Assembly (NCBI GenBank): GCA_002762985.1
Contig: PCXZ01000016.1
Coordinates: 42,088 to 106,087 of the forward strand
Source: Candidatus Woesearchaeota archaeon CG10_big_fil_rev_8_21_14_0_10_44_13
Lineage (GTDB): Archaea; Nanobdellota; Nanobdellia; Woesearchaeales; UBA12501
Length of the DNA: 64,000 nt
Reading direction: 5' to 3'
The translations under genes and the position numbers were made by a program. The notes under the pieces were generated by a model. That model ran no database searches. It was not told the DNA's origin and saw only the letters and a list, made by a program, of their open reading frames with translations. Below are positions 731 through 48,570 of this stretch, piece after piece; the stretch's first letter is position 1, and each line of letters starts with the position of its first letter.

Positions 731-873
731 AATAATGTATTAATAAATAAGGCATTATTGGTATAAATTAGTATAATTTCATGCGGGGTACATGTGGGTG
801 TGTATTCCAATATCAGGCAGATTATCATTGAAATACATTGGAAATATCCATTGAAATCCGATATCGGGGTGTT

Positions 874-29330: not shown

Positions 29331-32300
29331 TTGGCTTATGGAAGGGGGCTTATTAAGGGTTATAAGCTCCTTTTTGCAAATAAAAAAGGGTTGAATGCCT
29401 TGTGCACAGGTAAATGGCGTAGAGTCAGAAATAGGAATAGGCAGATTAGCCTGTCTTTTCCCCGAAAACCCAAAAAAGAGAGTGGTAAATTGATCAGTGA
29501 AAAGAGACTTAAGAAGGCAGTAATATTCCTGCTTGTTCTTTTTGCATTATCCATTGCTGTCAATCATGCCTCTGCTGTGACCACTTTGCTGACCGAAGTC
29601 GCAAGCTCAAGCAGCACAGGAGATTCAACAAACCCCGCCATGGCCATGAATCCTAACGATCCCACTCTCATGCACATGGTCTGGGAGGATGATTCTGATT
29701 TTGCAGGATCCACCATAACAAGGGAGATAAATAATGGCCCTGAAAAAGACATAGTATATACAAACAAGGATGATACTGTCTGGCTTTCCAAAGGCATAGG
29801 GACTAGCAGCATCTATATAGTCAGCGACAATACGAGCATGACAAGCTCCCAGAACCCGGACATAACAACAGGATATAACAACATAACCCATGTAGTATGG
29901 CAGGGCATAACAAAGCCAGAAGCATTGACAGCAGATTCTAACACGCTCTTCCTTGCGCATTTTGACGGCCCTTCTTTTGATGCTGATTACTCTGCAGCTG
30001 AGCTGCCTTCAGCCCTGTCTTCCACAGGAGTCGAATTCTCAGACAACAACTCCATCTATAACAAGAGCGTGTATCTCGAAGGCACAGATTACCTCAGTTA
30101 TGATGCAGGGAACAACATAAACATGACAAAGGGGACGATAGAGATATGGTATAATCCCCAGCACAGGTCAAGGAACTATGAATTATATATTCTTTTTTCC
30201 GCATGGAATTCCAGCAACAATCATTTCTACATCGGATTGGATGAAGTGGAAGATCCATCGGGGGAATCAACAAATCCCTATTTCTATATATTTATGGAAT
30301 ACAACTCAAGTAATATAAGAATGAGTTATTACCCTCCTTACGAGCTCAAAAAGAATGAGTGGCACCATATAGCTTTTGCCTATGACTTCTCAGATCCTTC
30401 AGCAGGCATCTGCAGATTCTATCTGGACGGCTATCTTGCTCTTATGAACAATTCCTGCGATTCCTTTTCATTCAATCCTGAAAGCATTGCTGTCGGTAGC
30501 ATTGCAACAGCCCCTTCGTATAGTGCGCGAGGCCAGATAGATGAACTGAGGCTGTCCAATTCGATTAGGACAGATGCCGAGATAAGGGCAGATGCAGGAC
30601 AGAGGGACCTGTTCTACAACTCCATGAACGGAACCACATGGGCAGGGGTTTCGATAATAACATCCGACGATGACAACAACTCATATTTCCCGAGGATGGA
30701 TGTAGACAAGAACGATACGCTCCATCTTGTCTGGGAAAGCTTCCATAATGACACATTCAGCATCGTGAAATACAGGGAAAAGAAGCATGGCTCAGCATGG
30801 TCAAGCTCTGAAGTGGTGAGCGGTTCAGAGACAGCGACTCATTTCCCCGATATAGCAGTGGACCACCTTAATTACAGCCACATAGTCTGGCAGGATGTCG
30901 ATTTATCCTCCGGTAATTTCTCCTATTTCAGCACGATCAGGTACAGCAAAAAAAACCTCACAAGCTGGGCGCCCATAGAGAACATAAGCAATAGGACCTC
31001 TGATGCCTTTGGGGTGTCTCCAACAACATTTAAATTATCCTATTTCTTTTCGACGCCAAGGGTGGCTGTTTCTGCTGACAACATAACGCACGTCGCATGG
31101 TCTACACAGGCGGGTTTCCCTGACAAGGATCTACTGTTCTACCTCTCATTCGATGATCTGGACGGCAATGTGACATATGCGAACGGGAGCAAGTTGAGCG
31201 GACAGAACGAATCATATTTCCATGTGGCCGGCAGGTCCGACACCAGCAATGCCATATACACAGGCTATGCAGCACGTGTGAATGCAACAGGCTACATAAA
31301 CTACTCTTCGCAGAACAACATCAATCCCAATTACGGCACAATAATGATGTGGGTATACCCTCTTTGGGATCCTGGAGTCCAGGAGCCCATGCACGTAAAC
31401 AGCATATTCGCATATTACTCAAGCAATGCAAGCCTTACAGACAAGAGCGAGTACATCACCTCTTATATCAAACAATGTGATGATACCATAACTTTAATAT
31501 GCCTAGGGGATGCAACAACATCATTGCTTTATTTCCATATCTACGACAATAAGACTGAAAATAATGTCATGTATTACAACATATCTTCCTGGGAGAGTTC
31601 TGCGTGGCACCATGTAGCCTTTACATGGAACCTTACAGCAGGGAACAATGCGACAAAGATGTATATAGACGGAGATAATGTTCCAGCGGCTCATTTCCCT
31701 GACAACAATTCTGCCATGTATTTCAATGACACGCCCACTGAGATCGTAATAGGCAACCTATTCAATGAGTCGACAGCAGATTATCCTTACGCGTTCAATG
31801 GCTCGATAGATGAGGTCATGATATTTGACAGGATACTTGATGAGTCAGAGATCGATTCCTGCAGGAAGAGGGACCTGGACATAGCCTACAGGCAGAGGAA
31901 TGAATCAGGATGGCAGAATTATGAATTAGCGAGCGAATTGAGCACAGAAATGTCAATACTTCCTTCTATCGCACCAAAAGACGGCAATGTTTATCTTGCG
32001 TGGGTCGGGGCTGACAGCTCATATGAATATTACACTAACAACTATTATCATGGGGCTTTTTTCAAGGCTGCCATGAACATAAGGAACACAACATCATGGA
32101 AAGGGGTTGAAGTGATAAATGATGAGAGCCCGAAAGAGGCTTATGCCCCTGAAATAAAGGCATCAAGTCCGGGAAAGATAGATATCTTATGGGAGGATAC
32201 CATCAGGATGGGAGGGACAAACCTCCATATCCTCTACAGGGAATTTTCTAACAGCACGACCCCTAAAGTCCAGCTCACTTCGCCCACAGGGGGCGAGGTC

Positions 32301-35300
32301 ATAACCAGCAATCTCGATGTAGAGGCGACATCAGAAGACCCTGATTCGACAATAAGCAATGTCTCTTTCTACTATACTACTGATGATGGGCTTTCGGGCA
32401 ACCTGATCTGCACTGCAACAAGCTCTCCTTATTCGTGCACATGGACAATAGGCCTCACATCTGAGGATTTTTACAAGGTCAAAGCGATAACGACAAGCAA
32501 TGACGGCGGCAGGAACTGGAGCATGTCCAATTACATGTATGTTGACAGCTCTGCTTCTGTCAACATGTACAATTTCAACCTTACGGGCAATGATGCTGGG
32601 TCGAATGTGATATACAACAAGAGCTGGACTAAAGATACTGAACAATTCAACATCCCTGATCCGACTAATGAGAGCACTTTCGGCAATGACATCACTGATC
32701 TTGCGAAGGCTAATGTCTCTGTTTCTGATGGCGATTACTATGTTGTCTCAAACAATCTTGGCTGCGGGATTTATAATCTTACAAACTCTATAATGTTCAA
32801 ATTCTACATTGATGAGACCCCTTCAGACATCCTCAATATGCGGATCCAGTGGCAGGGGTATGGGTATGTCAAAAACGGCTATTACACAAACCTCAGCATA
32901 TGGAATTTTGACACGTCTTCCTGGGAATCCCTTGCAAACAAGAATTTTGTCTATTCAGAGAGAAGCGACCTTTCCTCTTCCCTTACAAGCGGTTTCAGCA
33001 GCTATCTTGACCCGACGGACAATTTCATGTATATCCTTGTCACGACAGACGAATATTATAGCGAGGTGTGCGGTATGACGATGTATCTCCCTTTTGGCGG
33101 CTGTCCTGCATATCTTTCGTGGAACGGTACGGATTACCAGTTTGAGACAGAGGGCATACTCGCGATATTTGACAGGCGTTCTGAGTTCCCGACATACGAC
33201 AAGCTGAACAATATCAAGCCTGTAAATGGCACAATAAGGCTGGCCATAGCAGAAGTTGTCGATGAGACGACATATATGGATTCTGCTGAGCTGATCACAG
33301 TGGACCATGGCACAGATGCAGATGTGCTGCTGGATCTCAATGGGATCCCGCACACGATTATGGACCCAGAGAAAGTGATATGCACTGATATGATGGGCAA
33401 TGATTGCACGGCCCTTGTCGAAGCCCAGGATGAGAAGCCCAAAGGAGCATCGTCAAGCATGAAGAACGGCCTTGTAGGGTCGAGATCGATGGATGATATG
33501 CCTCTCATGAACGGTCCTGAAGGTAATTACTGGGTCAGCGACCTCTCAGCGCTCAACATCGGCGAAAAAGGCACAAGGGATTATATAGGGATCGAGCTGC
33601 CTAAGCAGGATGAGGATCATGCTGCAGCAGACGCAGACGGAAATGACAAGATAAAGATCATAATAAGCGGAAGCGACACAGGGTTACTTTGGGAATCAGA
33701 ATCAGGCTTGTTCAGCCTTGCAGGAGACACACTGCCTTACCTTTATAGCCTTATGGATGACACAAAGATAGGCGAGCTCGGCGCAGATGGCATATTCAAG
33801 GCAGTCCCCCTTAAGATACAGTTCCTTGATGATGGGGGGAGATGGGTGGATTATCCTGGGGATTTCAGGAATGCAGTGTTCGGAAGCTACAGGACGCTTG
33901 TCTTCCCTTTGGACAGGTCCATAATAAGGTCCAGCAGGATAAGGATCAACATGATGGCCTATTCCTATATGATAGATTATGTCGGCGTGGATTATTCAGC
34001 AGACGAGGATGTTGCCGTCAACAGGATAAGGTCAGAAGACCCTCTGCTTAGGGAATCAGATGACTCAAGGAAGATCCTGCATACCGGCGATTTCTATGAG
34101 ATCTCATTCAGGGAACCTGAGAAAGGCGGCAGCAGAAAGACCAAGAGGAGCTATTTCCTGATGACAGAAGGATATTATCATCCGCTTGAAAGAGGGATAG
34201 AGATAACAGAAAACAATATGAAAGAAAAAGAAGGCATAGAAGACGAGGCAAATGACGAAAACATGCCGGACAACAGTATGCCTAAGATAGGGAATATGCT
34301 TGATGCGATAAGCGCAATCTCAAAAGTCAAGAACGGCACAACATATGCAAGGATGATCTATGACCCTGCTTATGCAGAGGAGCATATGCTGGACATGTAT
34401 CTGGACAAGAAGCTCAACGAAGCAAGAAGCAGTTCAGGCCAGCAGGCAGATGGCAGGAAGCACAACAGCCTTTACACTGATTTTGTTAGGGTTATCATCG
34501 GAAAATGCATAGTCCCTGTGGACGGCCTTAAGATATACGAGAACACGCAGCTTTGCGCAAATTCAGCCTTCACAGTCGCCGATTCTGACGGTGACGGCAA
34601 GATAATCGAGATCCTCGGCCAGAACCTTGTCTTTGACTGCAGAAGGTCGTCCATAGACAGCGGCGGAGACGATAACCCTCAGCGCAACCAGGGGGCAGGC
34701 ATAGCGATAGGCCTTAATCATACGCAGAATGTGACTGTGAAGAACTGCAACCTCAGCAGGTACAGCGTCGGCATAGGATGGAACTACAGCAAGGACCTGC
34801 TCATATTTAACAACACAGTCGAGAAGAGCTATATGGGGATTGCGTGCGACAGGTCAAACAACAGCGTGATAAGGGATAATTACATAAACTATCCCTTCTA
34901 TGTCGGGTTCGGGCTGGCTGGCGACAGCAGGAACAACACTGTCGTGAACAACACCGTAGTGAACTCGTCTCTCCTGGCTTATGCGCTTGAAGGCGCTGAT
35001 GAGAACTTGATTGCTTATAACCTTGCGAATGGGTCATCTGACAAGGCCTGCGGCACTGTATGCACCAATGTAGGCGCCCTGGGCCTGACAAAAAGCGCAA
35101 ACATGAATACAATAAGGAACAACACCATAAATAATTTTTACATGGGCATAGGCATGGTCGATGTCGGGAGTTTCTTCGGCCAGAGCTCGTATGGCGAATC
35201 AGGGCAGGGCAATAATTTCAGCTCGAACATAATCACCAATGTGCTTGTCGAGGGCATAGGCCTGCTTTATCCTTACGATGCGGATTATCACAACTATTTC

Positions 35301-38300
35301 GACCAGAACAACCTGATAAAAGGGGAGAAGTTCTATTATTATTATGATGTGCATGGGAATGAGACAAACTATGTCCAGGTAAGCGATCTCAACCTCACTG
35401 CGGGGAACACAAGCATGTTCACAGGCAAGATAACTATTGTGAACTGCAGCTATATCAACATCACGAACAACAATGTCTCAGGGAACTATTATGGCATACA
35501 GGTATTCGAGAGCCACCACATACTATTGTCAAACAACAGGGCATTCAACAACAGGGAACCCCTGTTCGCAAGCCTTTTAGGCGTCCCAAGATTTGTAATG
35601 GGTGCAGGATACGCCATAATGAGATCCCACGACATAAACCTAACAGACAACAATGCTTCTGAGAACTATTTCGGCTATTACACCAAGAATTCATACAACC
35701 TCACTTTCATCAATAACAGCGCATCGATGAGCTTAGGCACTGGCTTTTACATAAATTCGACAAACATATCAAGCTTCATAAACAATACAGCGGACCAAAG
35801 CGGGCTTTCAGCGTACCTGTTCATCAACTCGTGGCTGAACAGGATAGTCAATAATACCGCGAGGGACGGCGCCGCAACATCCTTCGAGACAAGCATAACA
35901 GAGAGGCAAAAAGGGTTCTATTTCGAGAACACATTCAATAATACGATAACTGACAACCTCGCCTATAACTGCACTTATGGTTTCTTCATGAACATAACGA
36001 ACGAGACATTCGCAAACAATACCGCGATCAACAACTCTTTGGCAGGGGTGGTATTCATCAATTGCCTGAGCGGAACGGTCATAAATGAGACCGGCAACAT
36101 AGTAGAGAACAACACAGGAGCAGGATACATATTTGCAGGATGCAACAATGCCCTTGTCACTAACCTCAACACAACGCAGAACAACAGGACTGGATTTGAG
36201 ATATATTCTTCGCACGACCTGACACTCTCTAACCTATGGTCGAAATTGAATGATAAGGGGTTCATATTCAATGCATCATACAACTGCACCCTCACTAACT
36301 CATACTCTATAAACAGCACCTCTCATGAGATATATTTCTATTCATCGACTGACAACAACATAGCCGATTCTACAATCATAAACAATGTATCGGGCAATGA
36401 TGTCTACTCTACGACGAACTCATGGAATTACATGGTGAACACGAGCTTCAATCAGTCGAACATAGCAGATTCTGGCAACTCGAACCTCTCCGTGCAATGG
36501 CATCTTGATTTCTATGTGCAGGACAATGAGAGCATACCTGTCGAAGGCGCAAGCATATGGATGAATGACACGCTCGCACAGGAATATGATGCAGCAACAG
36601 GGACGAATGCAAGGGCAAGGCTCAATCTAACCGAATATGTGACAACTGGCGGAGTGAAGTCCTATTACAGCAATTACACATGGAATGCGACAAAGGCAGG
36701 ATACATGTCGAATGTCTCTATGGTCAATATGACCGAGAACAAGGAGATTAATGTAACAATAAACCTCTTTGGGGGCATAACAGACATATCGCCGCCTACA
36801 TCGCCGATAGTTTATGACGGCTACGATTATGTGGATTATGACTGGACGAACAACGCATCGACTCTTTTCGGCTCATGGAGCAACTCCACTGACAGGCACC
36901 TCATATTCTATGGCTACAGGATATTTGAGAACGGGACATGCCTGCCCGGGAAATGCGCTCCGACAGAGGTTGAGCAGGCGACACAGGTCCAGATAGACGG
37001 CTTGACTTTGAGGGAGGGCTATAACTACACATTGAGCGTCAGGGCAAGGGACAGCTCATACTATTATTCGCCCTTCATATTCTCTGACGGAGCAATAGTG
37101 GACCTTACGCAGCCGAATGTCACAGTGAACAGCACAACACACATGAATTCATCGCAATGGTACTCTAGCCCCAATGCAACATTCACATTCTACGGCAATG
37201 ACTCCCTCTCAGGCATATCGGGATACAGCTTCATGCTCGACGGGAATTCAGGGACAGGGCCTGACTTCGTTGAGGACACAAGGGCAGACCTGCTCCTGCA
37301 GAGCGCTAAGAACAATGGCCAATCCAAGGTATTGAGGGCGAATTCCACAGGATCGGCATTCGCGGCAATAACAAAGATAAACTCCAATCTGACAACAGGG
37401 GATAATCTCACGATAAGGGTCGCGCTTAGAGAGGATGTCTCAGATACATCCGATCCGATGACCATAGAAGCTTACCTCATCCCGAAAGACACTTCCATAA
37501 CTACCTATGAGCTCAACCCGTACAAGATAAGCAATATAGACACAAAAGTTCTTGACCTGAGCAGCAAGGCGCTCACGGAATCGGATTATTACTCATTCAA
37601 CCTTGTGGCCACATCAGCCTCGTCGGACTCATTCTATATAGTTATCGCATCAAATCTTCATGACGACAACAACACCCACAACATAAGCATACTGGGCACA
37701 AGCACGGACCTGGACAATTCAACATCATCATTGATATGCGAGGAAGGCACAAGCTGCACTAACATAACCACCTCATTCGATTACGCGATAGAGGTGAAGA
37801 AAAAAGACAACAGCACTGTCTGGAGCAAGACATACTCAAATCTTGCGAACGGTGAGCACTGGTTCCATGTGAGGTCAAGGGATGTGGCAGGCAGCTGGAG
37901 CGAACCAGGGCATTTCAAGGTCATGATAGACTCTGTGAATGGGACGCCATTGTACACGACAGTGACTCCTGTAGGCTACATAGCCACGACAGAGCCGACA
38001 CTAGTAGTAGAGACGAACGAATATACCGCATGCCTGTACAACACGACAAATACGACCTATACAGAGATGACTTCATATGACGGCCTGCACCACGAATCCA
38101 AACTAACGGGACTCTCATCAGCGACATACACCTACAGTTTCAACTGCACAGACCGCGCAGGCAACTCAGGATATAATGATACGACATTCATTGTCGACAT
38201 GAATGCCGCCCCTGACACGGTCTCCATATATTCAATGGGCAATTACACTGCAGGGAAAACGATGAGCATAGACGTGAATGCTACAAAGACCTATAGCGGG

Positions 38301-38957
38301 ATAGTTTATGGGTTAGGGGAGCTTGCAGGATATTTCACCATCAACGTGACCAACTCCACAGACACTTATAGGATAAGTTCGACTGTCAAGGATATGGGCA
38401 ATGGCAAGTACATCATCACTTTCACTGCGCCTCCAAAGGCGGGCGCTTACACGCTGACAGTGGCAGTAAGAGGAGTATCAGACACCCAGACGTTCAATAT
38501 AGCATCATATTCCGTAACGATAAAATATTCCTCAAGCGATCTTGCGAATGCGAACATAAAGACAAGGATGGCGTACAGCATCGTAGGATCATCCTATATA
38601 ATAGGTGTTGCAGGGGACGCACCCACTGCAACGACATCGGGTTCTACCTCGTCAAACCTGCAGATTGCCGGCCCGGCCATAAACAACAACCTTTACCTGT
38701 TCATAACAAGATCCACAGGAGAGCCAGGTTCTGTTTCCAGATATATAGACGGCGGCATTTTCCTCGACCTCCAGAACGCAGCTTTCGGATATCCTACATC
38801 ACAGGAAGAGCACGTATTGTCAGCAATGCTTGAGTACAAGGACATCTCGATAATAGGCAGCAATAAGGTCCAGGAAGGAAGATATACATTGATAATAAAG
38901 AACGAAGGCGTCAACCAGACGACAGGGAAGACGAAAGTGAGCGTGACGATCATATAG
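29331..38957 (+). CDS. Giant secreted protein (~3200 aa): LamG-like domains, Ig-like domain, right-handed beta-helix (NosD-like) region, C-terminal Ig/FN3-like domains
   Basis: Signal segment KKAVIFLLVLFALSIAVNHASA; two LamG-like modules (GTIEIWYNP...NEWHHIAFAYD; GTIMMWVYP...SAWHHVAFTWN); beta-helix NNTVVNNTVVNSS repeats. Exact start codon uncertain (TTG at 29331 or further downstream). Confidence 0.92.
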   Translation: MAYGRGLIKGYKLLFANKKGLNALCTGKWRRVRNRNRQISLSFPRKPKKESGKLISEKRLKKAVIFLLVLFALSIAVNHASAVTTLLTEVASSSSTGDSTNPAMAMNPNDPTLMHMVWEDDSDFAGSTITREINNGPEKDIVYTNKDDTVWLSKGIGTSSIYIVSDNTSMTSSQNPDITTGYNNITHVVWQGITKPEALTADSNTLFLAHFDGPSFDADYSAAELPSALSSTGVEFSDNNSIYNKSVYLEGTDYLSYDAGNNINMTKGTIEIWYNPQHRSRNYELYILFSAWNSSNNHFYIGLDEVEDPSGESTNPYFYIFMEYNSSNIRMSYYPPYELKKNEWHHIAFAYDFSDPSAGICRFYLDGYLALMNNSCDSFSFNPESIAVGSIATAPSYSARGQIDELRLSNSIRTDAEIRADAGQRDLFYNSMNGTTWAGVSIITSDDDNNSYFPRMDVDKNDTLHLVWESFHNDTFSIVKYREKKHGSAWSSSEVVSGSETATHFPDIAVDHLNYSHIVWQDVDLSSGNFSYFSTIRYSKKNLTSWAPIENISNRTSDAFGVSPTTFKLSYFFSTPRVAVSADNITHVAWSTQAGFPDKDLLFYLSFDDLDGNVTYANGSKLSGQNESYFHVAGRSDTSNAIYTGYAARVNATGYINYSSQNNINPNYGTIMMWVYPLWDPGVQEPMHVNSIFAYYSSNASLTDKSEYITSYIKQCDDTITLICLGDATTSLLYFHIYDNKTENNVMYYNISSWESSAWHHVAFTWNLTAGNNATKMYIDGDNVPAAHFPDNNSAMYFNDTPTEIVIGNLFNESTADYPYAFNGSIDEVMIFDRILDESEIDSCRKRDLDIAYRQRNESGWQNYELASELSTEMSILPSIAPKDGNVYLAWVGADSSYEYYTNNYYHGAFFKAAMNIRNTTSWKGVEVINDESPKEAYAPEIKASSPGKIDILWEDTIRMGGTNLHILYREFSNSTTPKVQLTSPTGGEVITSNLDVEATSEDPDSTISNVSFYYTTDDGLSGNLICTATSSPYSCTWTIGLTSEDFYKVKAITTSNDGGRNWSMSNYMYVDSSASVNMYNFNLTGNDAGSNVIYNKSWTKDTEQFNIPDPTNESTFGNDITDLAKANVSVSDGDYYVVSNNLGCGIYNLTNSIMFKFYIDETPSDILNMRIQWQGYGYVKNGYYTNLSIWNFDTSSWESLANKNFVYSERSDLSSSLTSGFSSYLDPTDNFMYILVTTDEYYSEVCGMTMYLPFGGCPAYLSWNGTDYQFETEGILAIFDRRSEFPTYDKLNNIKPVNGTIRLAIAEVVDETTYMDSAELITVDHGTDADVLLDLNGIPHTIMDPEKVICTDMMGNDCTALVEAQDEKPKGASSSMKNGLVGSRSMDDMPLMNGPEGNYWVSDLSALNIGEKGTRDYIGIELPKQDEDHAAADADGNDKIKIIISGSDTGLLWESESGLFSLAGDTLPYLYSLMDDTKIGELGADGIFKAVPLKIQFLDDGGRWVDYPGDFRNAVFGSYRTLVFPLDRSIIRSSRIRINMMAYSYMIDYVGVDYSADEDVAVNRIRSEDPLLRESDDSRKILHTGDFYEISFREPEKGGSRKTKRSYFLMTEGYYHPLERGIEITENNMKEKEGIEDEANDENMPDNSMPKIGNMLDAISAISKVKNGTTYARMIYDPAYAEEHMLDMYLDKKLNEARSSSGQQADGRKHNSLYTDFVRVIIGKCIVPVDGLKIYENTQLCANSAFTVADSDGDGKIIEILGQNLVFDCRRSSIDSGGDDNPQRNQGAGIAIGLNHTQNVTVKNCNLSRYSVGIGWNYSKDLLIFNNTVEKSYMGIACDRSNNSVIRDNYINYPFYVGFGLAGDSRNNTVVNNTVVNSSLLAYALEGADENLIAYNLANGSSDKACGTVCTNVGALGLTKSANMNTIRNNTINNFYMGIGMVDVGSFFGQSSYGESGQGNNFSSNIITNVLVEGIGLLYPYDADYHNYFDQNNLIKGEKFYYYYDVHGNETNYVQVSDLNLTAGNTSMFTGKITIVNCSYINITNNNVSGNYYGIQVFESHHILLSNNRAFNNREPLFASLLGVPRFVMGAGYAIMRSHDINLTDNNASENYFGYYTKNSYNLTFINNSASMSLGTGFYINSTNISSFINNTADQSGLSAYLFINSWLNRIVNNTARDGAATSFETSITERQKGFYFENTFNNTITDNLAYNCTYGFFMNITNETFANNTAINNSLAGVVFINCLSGTVINETGNIVENNTGAGYIFAGCNNALVTNLNTTQNNRTGFEIYSSHDLTLSNLWSKLNDKGFIFNASYNCTLTNSYSINSTSHEIYFYSSTDNNIADSTIINNVSGNDVYSTTNSWNYMVNTSFNQSNIADSGNSNLSVQWHLDFYVQDNESIPVEGASIWMNDTLAQEYDAATGTNARARLNLTEYVTTGGVKSYYSNYTWNATKAGYMSNVSMVNMTENKEINVTINLFGGITDISPPTSPIVYDGYDYVDYDWTNNASTLFGSWSNSTDRHLIFYGYRIFENGTCLPGKCAPTEVEQATQVQIDGLTLREGYNYTLSVRARDSSYYYSPFIFSDGAIVDLTQPNVTVNSTTHMNSSQWYSSPNATFTFYGNDSLSGISGYSFMLDGNSGTGPDFVEDTRADLLLQSAKNNGQSKVLRANSTGSAFAAITKINSNLTTGDNLTIRVALREDVSDTSDPMTIEAYLIPKDTSITTYELNPYKISNIDTKVLDLSSKALTESDYYSFNLVATSASSDSFYIVIASNLHDDNNTHNISILGTSTDLDNSTSSLICEEGTSCTNITTSFDYAIEVKKKDNSTVWSKTYSNLANGEHWFHVRSRDVAGSWSEPGHFKVMIDSVNGTPLYTTVTPVGYIATTEPTLVVETNEYTACLYNTTNTTYTEMTSYDGLHHESKLTGLSSATYTYSFNCTDRAGNSGYNDTTFIVDMNAAPDTVSIYSMGNYTAGKTMSIDVNATKTYSGIVYGLGELAGYFTINVTNSTDTYRISSTVKDMGNGKYIITFTAPPKAGAYTLTVAVRGVSDTQTFNIASYSVTIKYSSSDLANANIKTRMAYSIVGSSYIIGVAGDAPTATTSGSTSSNLQIAGPAINNNLYLFITRSTGEPGSVSRYIDGGIFLDLQNAAFGYPTSQEEHVLSAMLEYKDISIIGSNKVQEGRYTLIIKNEGVNQTTGKTKVSVTII

Positions 38958-39022: not shown

Positions 39023-39610
39023 ATGATGGATATGATTGGATATGAAAATAAGATGAAAGATAAAATGAAAAAAAACATGCTCAGGCTGAAGAAGAACAGG
39101 AAATCCCAGCTGTATATAATAACTGCATTGTTCCTCTGCTCGCTTGTTTTCCTGCTTAATTCAAGGGTAGAAAGGATCGAGGAGAGCACGACGGAATTCG
39201 TGTCAACATACAATAATTTCGTGAATGAGGCGAAATATGCCGTCAATAGCGCAATATACCTCAACAGGAATGTTTCGGACGATTTCAGCAGGTTCGCTGA
39301 TGATTATATCGGCTATGCAGAGAGCAAAGGCATAAATGCCTATATGTTTTACGGCATAGTCTATGACGACAAGGTGTATTTTGCAAACAAGCTGAACGAG
39401 AACGTCAATATAACTTCAGGGAATGCAGGAGGCACCGCTAACTTTATATTGACCTCAGGCAACCAAAGCACAATAACGAAGAAAAACTGGCTTAATGCGG
39501 ACATCGGCGGCACAAGCTACTTTTTCAACACATCGATGAATGTCACTGAGATAAAGCTCGTCATGAAGATGTCCCAGGAGAACAAGACAGAGGTAAGGAG
39601 ATATGGCTGA
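39023..39610 (+). CDS. Pilin-like protein with N-terminal hydrophobic segment
   Basis: KKNRKSQLYIITALFLCSLVFLLNSRVERIEE, archaeal type IV pilin-like N-terminus. Confidence 0.7.
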   Translation: MMDMIGYENKMKDKMKKNMLRLKKNRKSQLYIITALFLCSLVFLLNSRVERIEESTTEFVSTYNNFVNEAKYAVNSAIYLNRNVSDDFSRFADDYIGYAESKGINAYMFYGIVYDDKVYFANKLNENVNITSGNAGGTANFILTSGNQSTITKKNWLNADIGGTSYFFNTSMNVTEIKLVMKMSQENKTEVRRYG

Positions 39611-40187
39611 AAAGAGCGTTAAAACGAGCATTAAAAAGGATTTCAAAAATAGCGTCAAAAATAGCTTCCAGACAGGCTTTAAAAAGGCATCATCAGCGCC
39701 TTCATCGGCGTCATTAAGGCCTGCATTAAGGTCCAAGAAGGCAGTTTCAACATGGATCTCCTGGGTCCTTCTTGTAACTTTCGTCATTTTCATAGGCACA
39801 ACGATATTCTATTGGATGAAGGACTATTCTACGACTGCAATGGCAGACCTTGCGAACAGGGTTAAAACGACCGAAGACTGCGATTTAGTGAGTATACAGG
39901 TCTCTGATGTCACATCAAAAAATGCGCAAACTTTAAATATGAAGGTCACAAATAGGTATAATTTAAGAATAGACCAGATAGTAATAAGCTTATATGACAG
40001 CAAGAACAGGTTTATCCTGTCAAACCTGAGCAATACGACCTTAAGGCCCAATTCAACAAAGGAAATTGAGTTTGAGCAGAACAGCAGCATTGCAACAGCA
40101 AGGCTTGAAGCCATACCTGTCATAATAGATGCAGGCAAGCAGATATACTGCATGGAAAGGAAAGTCGAGATCAATGTCACGAGCTGA
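39603..40187 (+). CDS. Type IV pilin-like protein
   Basis: RSKKAVSTWISWVLLVTFVIFIGTTIFYW class III signal peptide; N-terminal extension. Confidence 0.8.
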   Translation: MAEKSVKTSIKKDFKNSVKNSFQTGFKKASSAPSSASLRPALRSKKAVSTWISWVLLVTFVIFIGTTIFYWMKDYSTTAMADLANRVKTTEDCDLVSIQVSDVTSKNAQTLNMKVTNRYNLRIDQIVISLYDSKNRFILSNLSNTTLRPNSTKEIEFEQNSSIATARLEAIPVIIDAGKQIYCMERKVEINVTS

Positions 40188-40188
40188 T

Positions 40189-40212
40189 CCTGATCGGGCC
40201 GGCCCGATCAGG
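40189..40212. promoter_or_regulatory. Perfect 24-bp GC-rich palindrome directly after a pilin stop codon
   Basis: CCTGATCGGGCC|GGCCCGATCAGG; TGA stop ends at 40187. Confidence 0.75.
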
Positions 40213-40336
40213 CTGGATGCCTGGGCCAAGAATCAATGGATCAATAGTATCGCAAGGAATCAATAAGATCATTATCATACGGTCAACATAGGATCAAAAC
40301 AAAAGAGATTATTACTAAAACAAAAGGGGTGCCAAA

Positions 40337-40648
40337 ATGGGCAAAATAAAGGGATTATCTCCTATCGAAAAAGAGATAATTGAGCTCGAGCTTGAGAAAT
40401 CAAGGATAGACAGGGAAAAATCAATGCTTGTCCTGAACAAGGGCCTTTTCCTGTATTTCTGCTTCCTTTTCGTGGCAGTCATGGGATTCATCAACGGCTT
40501 CCTGACAAAAGATCTCCTGAACATACTGATCATAATGAGCCTTTGCATAATAATAATAGCTACTCTGCCTTATATAAAGACGATGCACAAGGAAGAGAAG
40601 AGGCTCAGTTCTCTGATTGATGATCTTAAGTCGAAGAGAGGTGGCTAA
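40337..40648 (+). CDS. Small coiled-coil plus two-TM protein within the pilus cluster
   Basis: EKEIIELELEKSRIDREKSMLVL then two hydrophobic helices. Confidence 0.7.
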   Translation: MGKIKGLSPIEKEIIELELEKSRIDREKSMLVLNKGLFLYFCFLFVAVMGFINGFLTKDLLNILIIMSLCIIIIATLPYIKTMHKEEKRLSSLIDDLKSKRGG

Positions 40649-40649
40649 A

Positions 40650-41210
40650 ATGTCAAATACAAAAAAAGAGGCCCATTCAGGGAAAAGACTAATCAGGTTT
40701 ACAGGGACAAAGGTGATACTGAGCAAGAAGGCCGTTTCGCCGCTCATCGCTACAGTTCTCCTCATAGCATTCGCTGTCGCATTGGGCGCAGTCGTCATGA
40801 ACTGGGGAAGGGGATATGTTGATGACACCACAGCATTCGCGACAGAGAAATCCAACAAGGAGATAAGGTGCAGCATGGACATCAACCTAAAATTCATAGA
40901 GTTCAACGATATAAAGCAGATCTGCCTTGACAACGGCACCAACTCCATAAATTTCACTCTCCAGAACACAGGGACAGTAGGCATCGAGGGAGTCAAGGTC
41001 CAGGCGATCGGCAATTCGTCAATAGTCGATCAGGATGTGAATAGGTCCATCCCAATCGCAAGCATACTCAAGGATTACATCAACTATTCATTGTCGGGCA
41101 ATGGATCCCTTAAGCAGATAAGGTTCACGCCGATGATAAAGGTGGAAGGAGTGAAGATGCTTTGCGCGCAGAACGCCCTCGTGAAAGAGGATGTGGACAT
41201 ATGCACATAG
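40650..41210 (+). CDS. Archaeal type IV pilin
   Basis: LSKKAVSPLIATVLLIAFAVALGAVVMNW. ATG 40650 chosen (track start 40617 is upstream extension). Confidence 0.9.
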   Translation: MSNTKKEAHSGKRLIRFTGTKVILSKKAVSPLIATVLLIAFAVALGAVVMNWGRGYVDDTTAFATEKSNKEIRCSMDINLKFIEFNDIKQICLDNGTNSINFTLQNTGTVGIEGVKVQAIGNSSIVDQDVNRSIPIASILKDYINYSLSGNGSLKQIRFTPMIKVEGVKMLCAQNALVKEDVDICT

Positions 41211-41304
41211 ACATTGATTTTATTTTTATCAATATATTTTATTGATTTCATTTTTATCAAATTAAGCCGACTGACGCAGGCATAAAAGAAATGTCAACCA
41301 AAAA

Positions 41305-41721
41305 ATGGCAGGACAATCAAAGAACATCACACTTTATGTATTCTTATTTGCTCTTTTTATAACCCTTGCGATGGTTTTGGGCGCGAGGACCTATAATCTT
41401 TTCACGGGATCGAAGACGGAAACAGAGAGCACGATGAAATCGACTATGCAGTGCGCATTCTCATACTCGCTTTCGAATATGGAATATTCAGACGGCGTCC
41501 TGAGGTTCGACCTCAAGACGACAGACGAGGAGCTATTCAAAAAGATAATTGTCGTGGGGCACGATGGCCCGAAGGAGATAGCGCTCGGCACTTATATAAA
41601 TTTCAGGCAGGGCGTGAGAGTGGAGCAGATACCGATGGGTGACAGCTTCTTGGTCTATCCTGAAGGGTGTGAAGGACAGAACAACAAGACATGCCTTATA
41701 TCAGAAGGAAGATGCAACTGA
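41305..41721 (+). CDS. Pilin-like/minor pilin protein
   Basis: MAGQSKNITLYVFLFALFITLAMVLGARTYNLF N-terminal hydrophobic helix. Confidence 0.7.
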   Translation: MAGQSKNITLYVFLFALFITLAMVLGARTYNLFTGSKTETESTMKSTMQCAFSYSLSNMEYSDGVLRFDLKTTDEELFKKIIVVGHDGPKEIALGTYINFRQGVRVEQIPMGDSFLVYPEGCEGQNNKTCLISEGRCN

Positions 41722-41739
41722 CCGTAAATCCGGGAGAAT

Positions 41740-42456
41740 ATGCAAAGAAGGTCTAAAATGCCAGAACATAACAAAAAATCGCAGATATGGGAATCAGCAG
41801 TCCTATATGTGCTGATGACAGCGATAATCATGGTGATCGTGCTTGAAGCCGGCGTCCCCATACTGCAGGAGATGAGGGACAAGGCAGTATTCATACAGAC
41901 AAGGGATAATTTCATAAGCCTTAACCAGCACATAGAGGATGTCAGCAATGCAGGCCCGGGCTCGCAGAGGCTTGTCCCAATCCAGATAAAGAAGGGCTAT
42001 CTCAAGATCGATAATGAGAAGATAAAATGGTATATGGACACAAAAGCAGACGTGATCGAGCCGATGTCAAAGATAAGCACAGGCAATGTCAAGATGGCAT
42101 CCGATTCGGACGTGGATGCGTATGAATCAGGCAATTACCTCATAATCGAGAATTTTTATGCCCAGGCAGGGTTCAACAAGATAGGCAATGAGTCGTCATT
42201 CGGCAACATCACCTCGACGAACATACTTGATTATATGAAGTTCAAGGGCACAGGGTCTGTGGCAAACGGCACATTCACGCTGCAGATAGACGGGACGTCA
42301 TTTGAAGGGAACGGCTACACAAAGATCGATGAGGAAGGATATGACAAGGACAGGGCAGTTGTGAGGGCGTTCATAAACACGACATCAGGCGCAAATTACA
42401 CGGTAACATTCACTATGTATGGGGATACGGATTTCATGACAGTAAACATAGAATGA
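41740..42456 (+). CDS. Pilin-like/minor pilin protein
   Basis: NKKSQIWESAVLYVLMTAIIMVIVLEAGVPIL; ATG at 41758 also possible. Confidence 0.75.
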   Translation: MQRRSKMPEHNKKSQIWESAVLYVLMTAIIMVIVLEAGVPILQEMRDKAVFIQTRDNFISLNQHIEDVSNAGPGSQRLVPIQIKKGYLKIDNEKIKWYMDTKADVIEPMSKISTGNVKMASDSDVDAYESGNYLIIENFYAQAGFNKIGNESSFGNITSTNILDYMKFKGTGSVANGTFTLQIDGTSFEGNGYTKIDEEGYDKDRAVVRAFINTTSGANYTVTFTMYGDTDFMTVNIE

Positions 42457-42598: not shown

Positions 42599-44629
42599 AT
42601 GCCTTCATTCATGGATAAGCTCAAGGGGATAAAGACCCTTGGCGATGTGAAATATCTCATAACAAAAAAAGAGGAGGATAGGGGAAAAGACATACTGAAA
42701 AGTATGGACGAGATCAGTCCTGAAGAGGCCTTTGCTGTAGGAGGAGGCCCCGTGATGATGAAAACGCCGTCCGGATTGGCGAAGCACGATGCCAAGAAGG
42801 AGGAAGAGACCGCTAAGACGCTTGAAGGCGCGCCTATCCAGTCATTGGCTGAAGGCGTCAAGACAAAGATAGAAGGCATATCTTTTTCCATAGACCTGAG
42901 GCCTAAGATAATAGAGCTCCCCCCCTTCAAGGATGTTTCTAGCATTAACGTAAAATATCCAGTAATGCCCCCTTATGCATACGCCCACATCTATTGGGAC
43001 AAGAAGAACAGCGAGCTCCTTTACGAGATAGAAGAGCCCGAGCTTTCGAAGGTCGAGAAGAACCTCCTCAGGCTGATACAGCTCGGATTGGAGGAGATGA
43101 TCAATGTGAGCTTTGTCAGGGCGACAAACTCCAACCTCATAATGCAGTACCTTGAGAAGAACGTCCAGTCCATACTCATAGAGCTGGGCACAAAGGTGAC
43201 AAAAGAGACCTACTTCAAGATAATGTATTATGTGTACAGGGATTCTGTCGGCCTCAATGAGATTGAGCCCATGCTCAATGATTATTTCATAGAGGATATC
43301 GAGTGCAATGGGCAGAACTTCCCCATCTATATAGTGCATAGGAAATACCAGAACCTGAGGTCCAATATACAATTCAATGACCCCCAGAGGATAACTGATT
43401 TTGTCGAGAAGCTAGCCCAGAAGGCAGGGAGATATGTGTCATACGCAAGGCCCATCCTTGACGGCACGCTTCCTGACGGATCGAGGGTGAACGCAACATA
43501 CACAAGCGATGTCACTACGAGAGGACCCACTTTCACGATAAGGAAATTCACAAAGGAGCCATGGACGCCAATACACCTGATAAACATGAACACAGCTTCT
43601 GCTGAAGTGTTCGCGTTCCTCTGGCTGGTGATAGAGAACAAGTTCAACATAATGGTGATAGGGGAGACCGCATCAGGAAAGACCACATTCATGAACAGCA
43701 TACTCCACTTCGTATCGTCAGAGGCGAGGATATGCTCTATAGAGGATACGAGGGAAATAAACATAGCCCACGACAACTGGCTGCCTGCTGTCGTCAGGAC
43801 AGGATTCGGGATACCCAATATCAGCGGAGTGCAGTACGGCGAGATAAACCTTTTCGATCTTCTCAAGGAGACTTTCAGGCAGAATCCTGATTATGTCGTT
43901 GTGGGAGAAGTGAGGGGCATAGAGACTTATGTCCTTTTCCAAGGCATGGCATCAGGCCACCCTTCATTCTCGACGTTCCACGCGAATTCGATGGAAACCC
44001 TGACAAGGAGGCTTGAGACGCCGCCCATAAGCCTGCCGCCGACCCTTGTAGAATCCCTTGATGTAGTCTGCGTCACAAGCCATATCAAAGGGAGGGAGAC
44101 CAACATAAGAAGGATGATGGAGATGGACGAGATAATAGAGGTCAAAGGAGAGGTAGGAAAGGTGGTGATGAACAAGCTCTTCTTATGGGATCCTGTCAAG
44201 GATGTCTTCCAGTTCAACGGCAATTCCCACGTGTTCAAGAAGATATTCGACAGGACAGGAACGCCTATACGGACTCTGATGGACGAGCTGAACACGAGGA
44301 CAAAGCTCCTGAAAAAGATAGCAGAGATGAAGATAACTGATTTCAAAGAGGTGAACGAGATAGTGAACTCGTATGTCAAGAACAAGACAGAGACCCTGAA
44401 GAGATTCGGCATAACTGAAGAGGGCATTGCAAACGAGAAGAAGGTGAAATCGGGAAATGAGGATAAGAAAGAGGGCAAAGAGAAACCCGCACCCAAGTCA
44501 TCGTCCCAGCCGCCATCCCAAAAACCGTCAAAATCACAAACCTCGCCGCCATCCCAACAGCCATCTCCTGCATCCGGGCAATCTTCAAAGAAGAAAAATG
44601 CAAAGAACAAGGCGCCAAATAAAAAATGA
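42599..44629 (+). CDS. Type II/IV secretion system ATPase (ArlI/TadA-like)
   Basis: Walker A GETASGKTTFMNS, DTREI, VVGEVRGIE, HPSFSTFHANS; Lys/Pro/Ser-rich C-terminal tail. Confidence 0.95.
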   Translation: MPSFMDKLKGIKTLGDVKYLITKKEEDRGKDILKSMDEISPEEAFAVGGGPVMMKTPSGLAKHDAKKEEETAKTLEGAPIQSLAEGVKTKIEGISFSIDLRPKIIELPPFKDVSSINVKYPVMPPYAYAHIYWDKKNSELLYEIEEPELSKVEKNLLRLIQLGLEEMINVSFVRATNSNLIMQYLEKNVQSILIELGTKVTKETYFKIMYYVYRDSVGLNEIEPMLNDYFIEDIECNGQNFPIYIVHRKYQNLRSNIQFNDPQRITDFVEKLAQKAGRYVSYARPILDGTLPDGSRVNATYTSDVTTRGPTFTIRKFTKEPWTPIHLINMNTASAEVFAFLWLVIENKFNIMVIGETASGKTTFMNSILHFVSSEARICSIEDTREINIAHDNWLPAVVRTGFGIPNISGVQYGEINLFDLLKETFRQNPDYVVVGEVRGIETYVLFQGMASGHPSFSTFHANSMETLTRRLETPPISLPPTLVESLDVVCVTSHIKGRETNIRRMMEMDEIIEVKGEVGKVVMNKLFLWDPVKDVFQFNGNSHVFKKIFDRTGTPIRTLMDELNTRTKLLKKIAEMKITDFKEVNEIVNSYVKNKTETLKRFGITEEGIANEKKVKSGNEDKKEGKEKPAPKSSSQPPSQKPSKSQTSPPSQQPSPASGQSSKKKNAKNKAPNKK

Positions 44630-44933: not shown

Positions 44934-47666
44934 ATGAGAAAAAATGTCAAGAAGGTAATAAACCAGGTATTGTCCCTGCTTGAGGAGGCAGAATCGTACG
45001 AGTTCCACAAGCAGAACCTGATAAGATCAGTTGACACTCTCTTCAGGGAATACCAGGAAGGGAAGTACAATCATGCCGAATACAACAAGCTCCTGCATGA
45101 TATCCTGAAAAGAAGGACAAAAAAAGAGTGGATAGAGTATTATGACGCTTATATCTATTCCATACTCAAGCAGATAGACCCCCTGATATCCCAGGTGATC
45201 TATTATGTCTATAATGATGATTCGATCAGGAGGCTTTCGATAAGCGGAAGGGAAGTGAAAGTGCGCGCTGAAGACCGCCGTTTCCCTGCGCCTTCCATAG
45301 AGGAGGACAAGAAGCACGAGCTCAGGAAGATAAAGCAGAAGGATGAGAAAGCCAAGGAGTTCGTGGAATTCGAGAGAGAGCCGATCCTTGGCGCCCAGCC
45401 TTCCCCACTAAAAGAGAAATACACAGAGGAGATAAGCAGGATAAGGCATGGAAGAGAGAAGACGGCCCAGGAGAAGATAGAGATAAAGACCCCTGAGATA
45501 AAGGGCGGGAAGATATCTTTTTTACAGAAGGCCCTGTTAGACATAAAGGCCAATATTGAGAAAAGAGAGGCGCGCAGGAAGAAGGAGTACATAAACAAAG
45601 AGCTTGAGAAGGCCAGGAAACCCTCGTTGTTCAGCATCATCATGAGGAAAGCGGCAGGGCTCAGGCCAGAGGCGAAGCCAAGACCTGTCAAGGTCAGAAA
45701 ACCATCAGTCTTCGTGAGGCTGGCCGATGGCATAAGATCCATGCTTTCGCCGAGGAAAAAGCTAGAGCTGAAAGAGGCAGTAAAGAAGCCCGTAATAAGG
45801 CCTACAGCGCAGGAAAGAGAACATCTCACTATATCTCTCTTGTCACGTCTCAAATACATACTTGGATTGAGCGGGGATTCTCAAAAGACCGAGATTGAAA
45901 TCAGAAAGCCTGAACCGCTCAAGATAAAGAAGCTGCCTGCGGGGATATCTTCTATCCGGAAAGACGAAGCCCTCGACAAGCTCTTCTCGCAGCTTGATAC
46001 CATAAAGAAAGGGGGCTCAGAGCTTAAGATAACTCCGAAAGGCACTGCAAAAAAGAGCCTGGGGATGAGGATGGACCTTTTCTTCATAAGGCTGCATGCT
46101 GCATTGAAATACAAGAAGCTCGTGATCGCTGGAAGAGCCCGCGGGTCAGGGAAAGCCGGAGCAGAGACCGAAGAGGAGAGGCCAGCTGAGATAATGCTCA
46201 AGCTGCCAGAGGCAAGAGAGGTGAAAACACCTGTTCCTGCAGCCAAAGAGAGGAAGATATCCATATTCAGCAGGATAAGCGAAGCAGCATCAAGGATAAA
46301 ATCCTTCCTGTTCGTGCCTTATGAGAAGCCAGTGCCGGCAAGAGCCGAGAAGAAGAAGGCTGTTCCTGAGCAGAAGATGCCTTCTGCACAGGCAGCTGAG
46401 AAAATATCGCTTGCTGAGAGGCTGCGCACTTATGTTGCTAATCTTTTCAAAGCAGAGAAGCCTTCTCCTAAGCCTTCCCCTGGCGCAGCAGCAGAGGCAG
46501 CGCGCGTATCAAGGGAAGCGGCAGAAGAAGCCAGGCCTGAGCATGTAAGGTTCAGGTTCAGCTGGAGCCAGATCAAGGAATCCTACAACAAGATGATGGA
46601 AAGGGAGAAGATCTTCGTCTCAAAGAAGATGGAAGTGACACCTTCATTGCAGATGCAGGCCCTGAAAGAGAAAGTGAGGGAGATATCAGAGGAGGAGCAG
46701 ATAACCCCTAAACTGCTCAGGGAGGAAGTAGAGAGCATACAGAAGATAATCTCAGAGAAGAAGAAGTACAAGGTCTATCAGCCGTCTTTCATAGGCTCTT
46801 TTGCAAATGCGACAATAAGGAAATTCACCTTTTACCTCATCGAGCAGTACCCGTCATTCTTCAAGACATTATATGACAACTTAAGGCTTGCGAACATCAA
46901 GCTCCTTTCGAATACCTATGTGAATATAATGCTCCTAACAACGATAATAATCTCTGCGATCTCTTCAGTGTTCTTCTTTGCGTTCTTCCTTTTCACGAAT
47001 AACCCTATCCTCATGATATTTCCCAAGGCGATAATGATGGCGGTCCTTTGCGGCGGCGTCACTTTCATGCTGTTCTATTCTTACCCCCAGATGCAGGCGA
47101 AGAACAGGGAGCATAGCATAAACACCAACCTTCCATTCGCAATAAACCACATCTCTGCTGTCGCAGGATCAGGCGTCCCGCCGACTAAGATGTTCAAGCT
47201 GATAATGGAATCAGAGGAATATGGGGAGATGGCTGTAGAGATAGAGAAGATAGTGGAATATGTAGAGCTGTTCGGCTACGATCTCCTCACTGCAGTGAGG
47301 TCTGTAGCATTCACGACCCCTTCCAGCGCATTCAAGGAATTCCTTGAAGGCATGGTCTCGACAATAGAGTCAGGCGGAGACCTGAACGTCTATCTCAAGG
47401 AGAAGACCTCAGAGGCGATGCTCTCATACGAGCTTGAGAGGCAGAAATACACAGAGACATTGTCCACATACTCAGATATATACACTGGCATCCTTATCGC
47501 AGCGCCATTGTTCTTCATAGTGGCCCTCTCGCTTGTCAGCATGCTCGGGGGCACAATCGGGGGATTGGAGGTCAATGTAGTGATTGTAGGGGGAGCTTAT
47601 GTCGTGATACCAGTGCTCAATATCCTGTTCATAATAATACTTGAGCTGACGCAGCCAGAGGTATGA
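44934..47666 (+). CDS. TadC/ArlJ-like pilus platform protein with ~600-aa N-terminal extension
   Basis: C-terminal T2SSF-like region (INHISAVAGSGVPPTKMFKLIMES..., several TMs); basic N-terminal half with repeated amphipathic motifs. Confidence 0.88.
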   Translation: MRKNVKKVINQVLSLLEEAESYEFHKQNLIRSVDTLFREYQEGKYNHAEYNKLLHDILKRRTKKEWIEYYDAYIYSILKQIDPLISQVIYYVYNDDSIRRLSISGREVKVRAEDRRFPAPSIEEDKKHELRKIKQKDEKAKEFVEFEREPILGAQPSPLKEKYTEEISRIRHGREKTAQEKIEIKTPEIKGGKISFLQKALLDIKANIEKREARRKKEYINKELEKARKPSLFSIIMRKAAGLRPEAKPRPVKVRKPSVFVRLADGIRSMLSPRKKLELKEAVKKPVIRPTAQEREHLTISLLSRLKYILGLSGDSQKTEIEIRKPEPLKIKKLPAGISSIRKDEALDKLFSQLDTIKKGGSELKITPKGTAKKSLGMRMDLFFIRLHAALKYKKLVIAGRARGSGKAGAETEEERPAEIMLKLPEAREVKTPVPAAKERKISIFSRISEAASRIKSFLFVPYEKPVPARAEKKKAVPEQKMPSAQAAEKISLAERLRTYVANLFKAEKPSPKPSPGAAAEAARVSREAAEEARPEHVRFRFSWSQIKESYNKMMEREKIFVSKKMEVTPSLQMQALKEKVREISEEEQITPKLLREEVESIQKIISEKKKYKVYQPSFIGSFANATIRKFTFYLIEQYPSFFKTLYDNLRLANIKLLSNTYVNIMLLTTIIISAISSVFFFAFFLFTNNPILMIFPKAIMMAVLCGGVTFMLFYSYPQMQAKNREHSINTNLPFAINHISAVAGSGVPPTKMFKLIMESEEYGEMAVEIEKIVEYVELFGYDLLTAVRSVAFTTPSSAFKEFLEGMVSTIESGGDLNVYLKEKTSEAMLSYELERQKYTETLSTYSDIYTGILIAAPLFFIVALSLVSMLGGTIGGLEVNVVIVGGAYVVIPVLNILFIIILELTQPEV

Positions 47667-47670
47667 TAGA

Positions 47671-48570
47671 ATGGCATTCAATAAGAACTACATACTGACA
47701 TTCGGGATGGGCATTGTGATACTCATACTTGATATCGCCATGTTCTATCATACCTTGTGGTTCATCCCGCTCATAGTAGTGGCTCTCACAATAGGATGGA
47801 GCCAGTACTGGATAGATTTCTTCATGAATATCCAGAGGCAGAAGAACATCGAAGCGAGGTTCCCTGATTTCGTGAGGTATCTCGCAGGAGCAATAAAATC
47901 TGGCATGCCGGTCTCAAGGGCGATAATCTATGTGTCGAAGACGGATTTCGGCGACCTCACGCCTTATGTGAAGAAGCTCGCAAACCAGGTCGAATGGAGC
48001 ATACCTGTCCACAAGGCTCTGAACACCTTTGCGAACGAGACGAAGAATGCCGTGATCAGGAGGGCCATCGCCACTGTTGTCGAGGCAGAGAGGGCAGGAG
48101 GAAATCTCGAGGATGTCCTTGAGAGCGTGACGAACTCCGTCATCGAGATAAAGAAGATGAAGCAGAGGAGGAGGGCCAGCATCCAAGGCCAGATAATCCA
48201 GAACTATGTCATCTTCATAGTGTTCTTGGTCGTCATGATAGTCGTCCAGAACATGGTAGTGCCTTATGTCACTGCAATAGGCGAGACAGAATCAAGGGGC
48301 AGCGATACAGGCATAATCGCGCCTTTGGGTGGTGTTGTCGAGAAGGTGAATTTCGATTTCAGCTCGATTGACGGCTTTTTGAATTCCATGAGGGCATGGT
48401 TCACGAGCCTCAGGGGCGTGTTCCTCATGATAGCCCTGATCCAGGGATTCTTCACTGGGATCGTCATAGGAAAACTTGCAGAAGGCCAGATGGCTCCTGG
48501 ACTGAAGCATTCATTGATACTGATGACGATCGCGTTCTTCGTGATAACACTGTCGCAGGGCGTTGTGTAG
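47671..48570 (+). CDS. Second TadC/ArlJ-like pilus platform protein
   Basis: RFPDFVRYLAGAIKSGMPVSRAIIY..., several TMs, EAERAGGNLEDVLESV. Confidence 0.9.
   Translation: MAFNKNYILTFGMGIVILILDIAMFYHTLWFIPLIVVALTIGWSQYWIDFFMNIQRQKNIEARFPDFVRYLAGAIKSGMPVSRAIIYVSKTDFGDLTPYVKKLANQVEWSIPVHKALNTFANETKNAVIRRAIATVVEAERAGGNLEDVLESVTNSVIEIKKMKQRRRASIQGQIIQNYVIFIVFLVVMIVVQNMVVPYVTAIGETESRGSDTGIIAPLGGVVEKVNFDFSSIDGFLNSMRAWFTSLRGVFLMIALIQGFFTGIVIGKLAEGQMAPGLKHSLILMTIAFFVITLSQGVV

Follow-up and report, generated by a model that had tools for sequence, protein, structure and literature searches.

The N-terminal extension of about 600 residues carried by the pilus platform protein encoded at 44934 of the window (the whole 64,000-nucleotide stretch of DNA analysed here) is made of three layers, namely an N-terminal domain (residues 1-95, hereafter the N-domain), a linker (about 100-540), and a pre-platform segment (about 541-658), and its N-domain recurs on large surface proteins. 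A compact three-helix domain, a disordered basic linker of about 440 residues, and a conserved segment running into the platform are each either directly seen or strongly predicted. Our preferred interpretation, which we place slightly below an even chance, is that the extension acts as a docking arm tethered to the cytoplasmic side of this archaeal type IV filament platform, with a presumed common partner for the N-domain and presumed weak binding by helical motifs in the linker. The original prediction had seen one array of repeats in this extension; the extension is indeed present, and what had been missed is the folded domain at 1-95 and the conserved part at about 541-658. Of all that precedes the pre-platform segment, only the N-domain is conserved across the family. 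The pilus cluster and the layers of the extension are as follows:

39603..42456, + strand: pilin-like and small membrane-protein genes (39603, 40337, 40617, 41305, 41740), upstream; from sequence inspection, with weak Pfam support
42599..44629, + strand: assembly ATPase, FlaI/ArlI-like (T2SSE), variable in its N- and C-terminal tails; from domain and model matches
44934-47666, + strand: first half of the platform, ORF of 910 aa with one T2SSF domain
44934..45218, + strand: N-domain, residues 1-95, helices 2-41, 47-58, and 63-93; from alignments, AF2, and the homologous domain in surface proteins
45231..46553, + strand: variable basic/Pro-rich linker, residues 100-540 (~440 aa), predicted to be disordered (pLDDT mostly <50)
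46554..46907, + strand: conserved pre-platform cytoplasmic segment, residues 541-658, containing LRLANIKLLSN; from the alignment
46908..47666, + strand: platform membrane region including T2SSF; from domain matches and AF2
47671..48570, + strand: second half of the split platform, with T2SSF and without the extension; from the ORF and Pfam

That the ORF at 44934 encodes a pilus platform protein, as originally predicted, is borne out, coordinates included: its single T2SSF domain covers residues 737-863 (47142-47522) and scores 56.7 bits against a curated Pfam cut-off of 25.2, and residues 653-905 are ArlJ/FlaJ-like, resembling the first half of ArlJ/FlaJ. Because a second T2SSF gene (47671) adjoins it and an ArlI/FlaI-like ATPase (42599) lies upstream, the two genes encode, judging from sequence, a type IV filament platform of archaeal type that is split in two. 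The ATPase scores 411.8 bits with the FlaI model versus 147.9 with the TadA model. Searching genomes and scanning 84,980 species genomes yielded a family of 78 related loci, with titles naming Woesearchaeota, Nanoarchaeota, Nanoarchaeia, or unclassified archaea and no others; the assembly ATPase adjoins the platform in 70 of these loci (most of the remaining ones are cut by contig ends), and the second platform gene is at most 400 bp away in 57.

Platform proteins are usually regarded as minimal, and we know of no TadC with such an extension; the present case indicates that they can bear large regulatory or tethering arms. Like ArlJ/FlaJ, UpsF, and other T2SSF platforms (archaellum, Ups, T4P), this one has a T2SSF domain, a membrane region, and a FlaI-like ATPase as a neighbour; unlike ArlJ/FlaJ and UpsF, it is split into two genes and carries the N-domain and the linker. 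No ArlJ model reached its NCBIfam equivalog cut-off (PRK06041.1-2 gave 104.6 bits against 550), and ArlJ/FlaJ, taken as an equivalog score plus both T2SSF halves in one protein, does not describe a platform with its second half in a separate gene. Two adjacent platform genes with one T2SSF each (44934 and 47671) recall TadB/TadC of T4cP, for which platform fission has been described (PMC10191384), whereas the sequences here are archaeal FlaI/ArlJ-like. Four other T2SSF ORFs in the same genome, on contigs C21 and C23, have open frames of 276-358 aa only, so the extension is special to this pilus system and not a property of the organism's platforms in general. The platform superfamily was already known; in the open-licence papers searched, we met no description of the extension, of the N-domain, of its occurrence on surface proteins as well, or of a long linker that bears motifs.

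The N-domain is modelled by AF2 with a pLDDT of 92.7 when taken alone and of 95-98 over most of its length in the full-length model. It has no confident Pfam family, its only matches being weak ones to the SHOCT-like DUF1707, to GvpG, and to PAH, and no structural match in the PDB at E <= 0.001; we gave up assigning it a known fold, as sequence and fold searches return mostly designed or generic helical proteins. DUF1707 is the commonest weak Pfam match of the platform N-domains (6/53) and is found in 3 of the 31 surface members, one of which gives the best E value, itself a weak match (7.9e-5). We take this likeness to lie in the helix-turn-helix core, which may resemble L..L...G.I...E[YF]; the N-domain differs from SHOCT/DUF1707 in having two long helices that flank a short one. 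The function of SHOCT is itself unsettled, and its authors' experiments gave no support for oligomerisation (PMC3581485). Paired amphipathic helix (PAH) domains bind short helical peptides, and the likeness to them consists of sub-threshold PAH_ZNF598 matches in 4 of the 31 surface-protein N-domains (best 2.7e-5); PAH is not among the top families for platform N-domains.

A first scan of the genome contigs with a single sequence gave no match, and a profile search of the window's own genome with the N-domain found three further proteins, two of which run off contig ends. Among 279 genomes (relatives and phylum), 70 have an N-domain match at E <= 1e-4, platforms counted in. From 20 regions and earlier loci we read a recurrent non-platform architecture: one to four N-domain copies, a single membrane helix, usually an LTGF[AV]-like motif, and then a long part, Thr/Asn-rich or Ig-like in some cases, which should be extracellular on this reading of the sequence. 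Exceptions are L143, where membrane helices precede an N-domain located C-terminally, and the pair L140 and L144, which have two membrane helices; two of the 20 regions are further platforms (L183 by its T2SSF domain, L180 by sequence). Reported ORFs of these surface carriers range from a few hundred residues up to several thousand; the longest, of 9,660 residues, is to be treated cautiously, as one search flagged an internal stop in it. Platform and surface copies of the N-domain are firmly homologous by profile comparison: aligned profile to profile, they match with a probability of 99.4 and an E value of 1.1e-21, and, reciprocally, a profile of surface copies alone retrieves the window gene at 4.5e-13.

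The T2SSF domain faces the cytoplasm; from this side and from the order domain, membrane helix, surface part, we infer that the N-domain is cytoplasmic in platforms and surface proteins alike. Its presence at the cytoplasmic end of the surface proteins as well suggests a shared docking partner. Co-occurrence of the two kinds of protein is suggestive at best: surface carriers are found in 11 of the 35 genomes with an N-domain platform versus 40 of the 244 without (Fisher p 0.058, uncorrected for kinship, the carriers having been sorted manually according to ORF length and score). That the N-domain is a lineage-specific cytoplasmic docking module of Woesearchaeota and their relatives, bringing a type IV pilus platform and giant membrane-anchored surface proteins together on a single cytosolic scaffold, perhaps where other cells are touched, with leash and motifs tuning assembly, is a speculative proposal that we regard as rather improbable.

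Several features of these surface genes deserve mention in their own right. A short motif, approximately [LIF]TGF[AV], directly follows the single membrane helix, on its presumed outer side, in most N-domain surface proteins (L173-L192, L116, L117, L138, L139) and could be a processing or packing signal. Four tandem N-domain copies open one membrane protein (L190:1179-2108, - strand). The giant ORFs of the window, 838-10347 (3,169 aa) and 29331-38957 (3,208 aa), have hydrophobic signal-like N-termini, and one of them is directly upstream of the pilus genes; we considered both as carriers and dropped them, since the N-domain profiles find neither. All three N-domain surface genes of this genome are directly preceded, apparently in tandem, by a small gene with HTH matches (sigma-70 region 4-like), suggesting from gene order a paired regulator:

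L116:1066-1656, - strand: small HTH gene ahead of an N-domain carrier
L117:827-1336, - strand: small HTH gene ahead of an N-domain carrier
L118:930-1493, + strand: small HTH gene ahead of an N-domain carrier

The extension as a whole varies widely in length. In the 71 loci with an uncut 5' end, the pre-platform part has 19-661 aa: it exceeds 150 aa in 50 (median 385), lies between 90 and 150 aa in 12, and is below 90 aa in 9, one of which (L078) is probably frame-broken, as its locus has a separate N-domain ORF. The entire extension measures 228-661 aa in the long orthologues, and the window protein (~600) is among the longest. A tree built on the platform part alone gathers all 49 long-linker rows on the same side of one branch (support 100/99), so the long linker probably changed state once, as a gain or a loss depending on the root. 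The other 20 rows, classed by length, comprise 12 with the N-domain alone and 8 with a shorter N-terminus lacking a recognised N-domain; because of these eight related platforms, the N-domain is not essential to filament assembly everywhere. Its conservation extends to the long orthologues and to most of those classed as N-domain-only. The linker, which in the window protein is 24% K/R, shows no column-wise conservation across distant orthologues and can barely be aligned past close relatives; a long linker is kept in every sampled member of the long-linker side, even as the sequence and the number of motifs turn over.

The original prediction listed seven helical segments in the linker. All seven are at the places given, each on its own separate helix predicted by AF2, with the stretches between them mostly at pLDDT <50:

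45507..45557, + strand: segment 1, GKISFLQKALLDIKANI, residues 192-208, beginning a predicted helix 195-228, core match weak (profile, AF2)
45618..45662, + strand: segment 2, KPSLFSIIMRKAAGL, residues 229-243, helix 232-240 (profile, AF2)
45699..45746, + strand: segment 3, KPSVFVRLADGIRSML, residues 256-271, helix 259-271 (profile, AF2)
45822..45869, + strand: segment 4, HLTISLLSRLKYILGL, residues 297-312, helix 295-309 (profile, AF2)
45960..46118, + strand: two-helix element, residues 343-395 (KDEALDKLFSQLD...MRMDLFFIRLHAALKY), helices 345-359 and 376-403 (alignment of close relatives, AF2)
46251..46310, + strand: segment 6, RKISIFSRISEAASRIKSFL, residues 440-459, helix 444-459 (profile, AF2)
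46398..46448, + strand: segment 7, EKISLAERLRTYVANLF, residues 489-505, helix 487-506 (profile, AF2)

Segment 5 (379-393) sits inside the two-helix element, lacks the S-h-h core, and fails the leave-one-out test. The short linker helices, as predicted, often begin at a Ser/Asp/Asn cap. AF2 confidence in the linker helices is moderate (block means about 47-87), which counts against the docking arm. As related repeats, the segments hold in part. A 16-residue repeat across all seven was rejected, as leave-one-out supports two of them only; what stands is a short S-h-h core, beyond shuffled linkers and present in orthologues too, which two segments fit poorly. With a 9-residue profile, again under leave-one-out, shuffled linkers are clearly outscored by KPSLFSIIM, KISIFSRIS, and TISLLSRLK; KPSVFVRLA and KISLAERLR come out as borderline, and KISFLQKAL and RMDLFFIRL do not pass. 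Most segments have the core x-S-h-h, and [KR] frequently stands at +4, with a hydrophobic residue at +5. In the window linker, S-h-h-x-[KR]-h is found 4 times for 0.17 expected, in the two nearest relatives 6 times for 0.34, and in 44 other orthologues 14 times for 2.6 (0/500 shuffles in each case); the excess also holds against a control in which the hydrophobic pattern is preserved. This pattern was chosen after the orthologue linkers had been read, and a profile built from the seven predicted segments is the cleaner test: in the 44 other linkers, which are partly dependent (L039, L041, and L043 are close kin), it gives 10 matches of at least 10 bits versus 0.67 expected, with a maximum of 4 in 60 shuffles. 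The extension occurs in orthologues with a varying number of motifs, so the original prediction stands up to the refuting conditions stated with it. Among close relatives, single motifs are gained or lost, yet the two-helix element is kept. Recent tandem duplication was discarded as an origin, with no DNA-level repeats beyond weak chance pairs. A basophilic kinase site R-K-x-S-h was set aside too: [KR] at -2 is enriched in the window and the two relatives nearest to it, and in no others.

Two further explanations of the linker are, in our opinion, about equally unlikely. The motifs might serve as docking sites for the assembly ATPase and so concentrate it locally beneath the platform. The two genes are neighbours in most loci, as seen above, the N-terminus of the ATPase (MPSFMDKLKGIK) looks motif-like by eye, and in archaella the ATPase is recruited via a cytoplasmic region of ArlJ (PMC12024892). 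Against this, the motif profile gives the same N-terminus 4.6 bits, less than the shuffled maxima, so that we do not count it as an eighth motif, and it is not conserved in other ATPases; moreover, a sister clade retains the same ATPase-platform pair without any linker. The other possibility is that the linker is a passive spacer and S-h-h simply what short helices with a Ser cap normally look like, no partner being bound. Before h-h pairs, the usual capping residues S, N, D, and G are enriched and K, E, and A are depleted, which fits helix capping; the motif number also drops to zero in many orthologues (34/47 linkers lack a strong match). Against a mere spacer stand the conservation of the two-helix element among close relatives and the enrichment that survives a control preserving the hydrophobic pattern (z 4.1 for [KR] at +4, z 3.2 for the hydrophobic residue at +5).

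A basic amphipathic skirt around the platform, its short helices binding the inner membrane face, is less likely still: the protein is membrane-bound, all seven segments have a net charge of +1 to +4, and the linker is basic, but the hydrophobic moments are no higher than those of permuted residues (0.12-0.74 of the permutations reach them), hydrophobic clustering in the linker equals that of shuffled linkers, and the enriched specificity is Ser before h-h with [KR] at +4 rather than amphipathicity itself. Since the moments do not exceed those of permuted copies, the word “amphipathic” in the original prediction is not established, and of its multivalent array of amphipathic helices we retain a multivalent series of short helices within a basic linker, for which both sequence statistics and AF2 speak.

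Retained length combined with turnover of sequence and motif number is what one expects of a leash that carries short linear motifs, and this linker behaves in that way. If the extension is a tethered docking arm, as we prefer to read it, the N-domain would bind a cytosolic partner also bound by the N-domains of surface proteins, the leash would bring that partner within the platform's reach, and the short helices would serve as weak, interchangeable binding motifs for the partner or for neighbouring parts of the machine, adding multivalent contacts. Woesearchaeota are tiny, widespread, uncultured archaea thought to live associated with other cells, and their surface machinery is, to our knowledge, almost undescribed; one unclassified cytoplasmic domain on both a pilus platform and large surface proteins offers a testable link between two surface systems.

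Two other observations concern the pilus genes. The pilin-like protein encoded at 39603-40187 of the window has an unusually long basic leader of ~50 aa ahead of its hydrophobic segment. In several relatives, the pilus ATPase gene contains inteins, mostly with LAGLIDADG domains (ATPase ORFs of L060, L065, L082, L101, and L111); ORF length suggests inteins in L095, L098, and L106 as well, and the insertion sites apparently differ.
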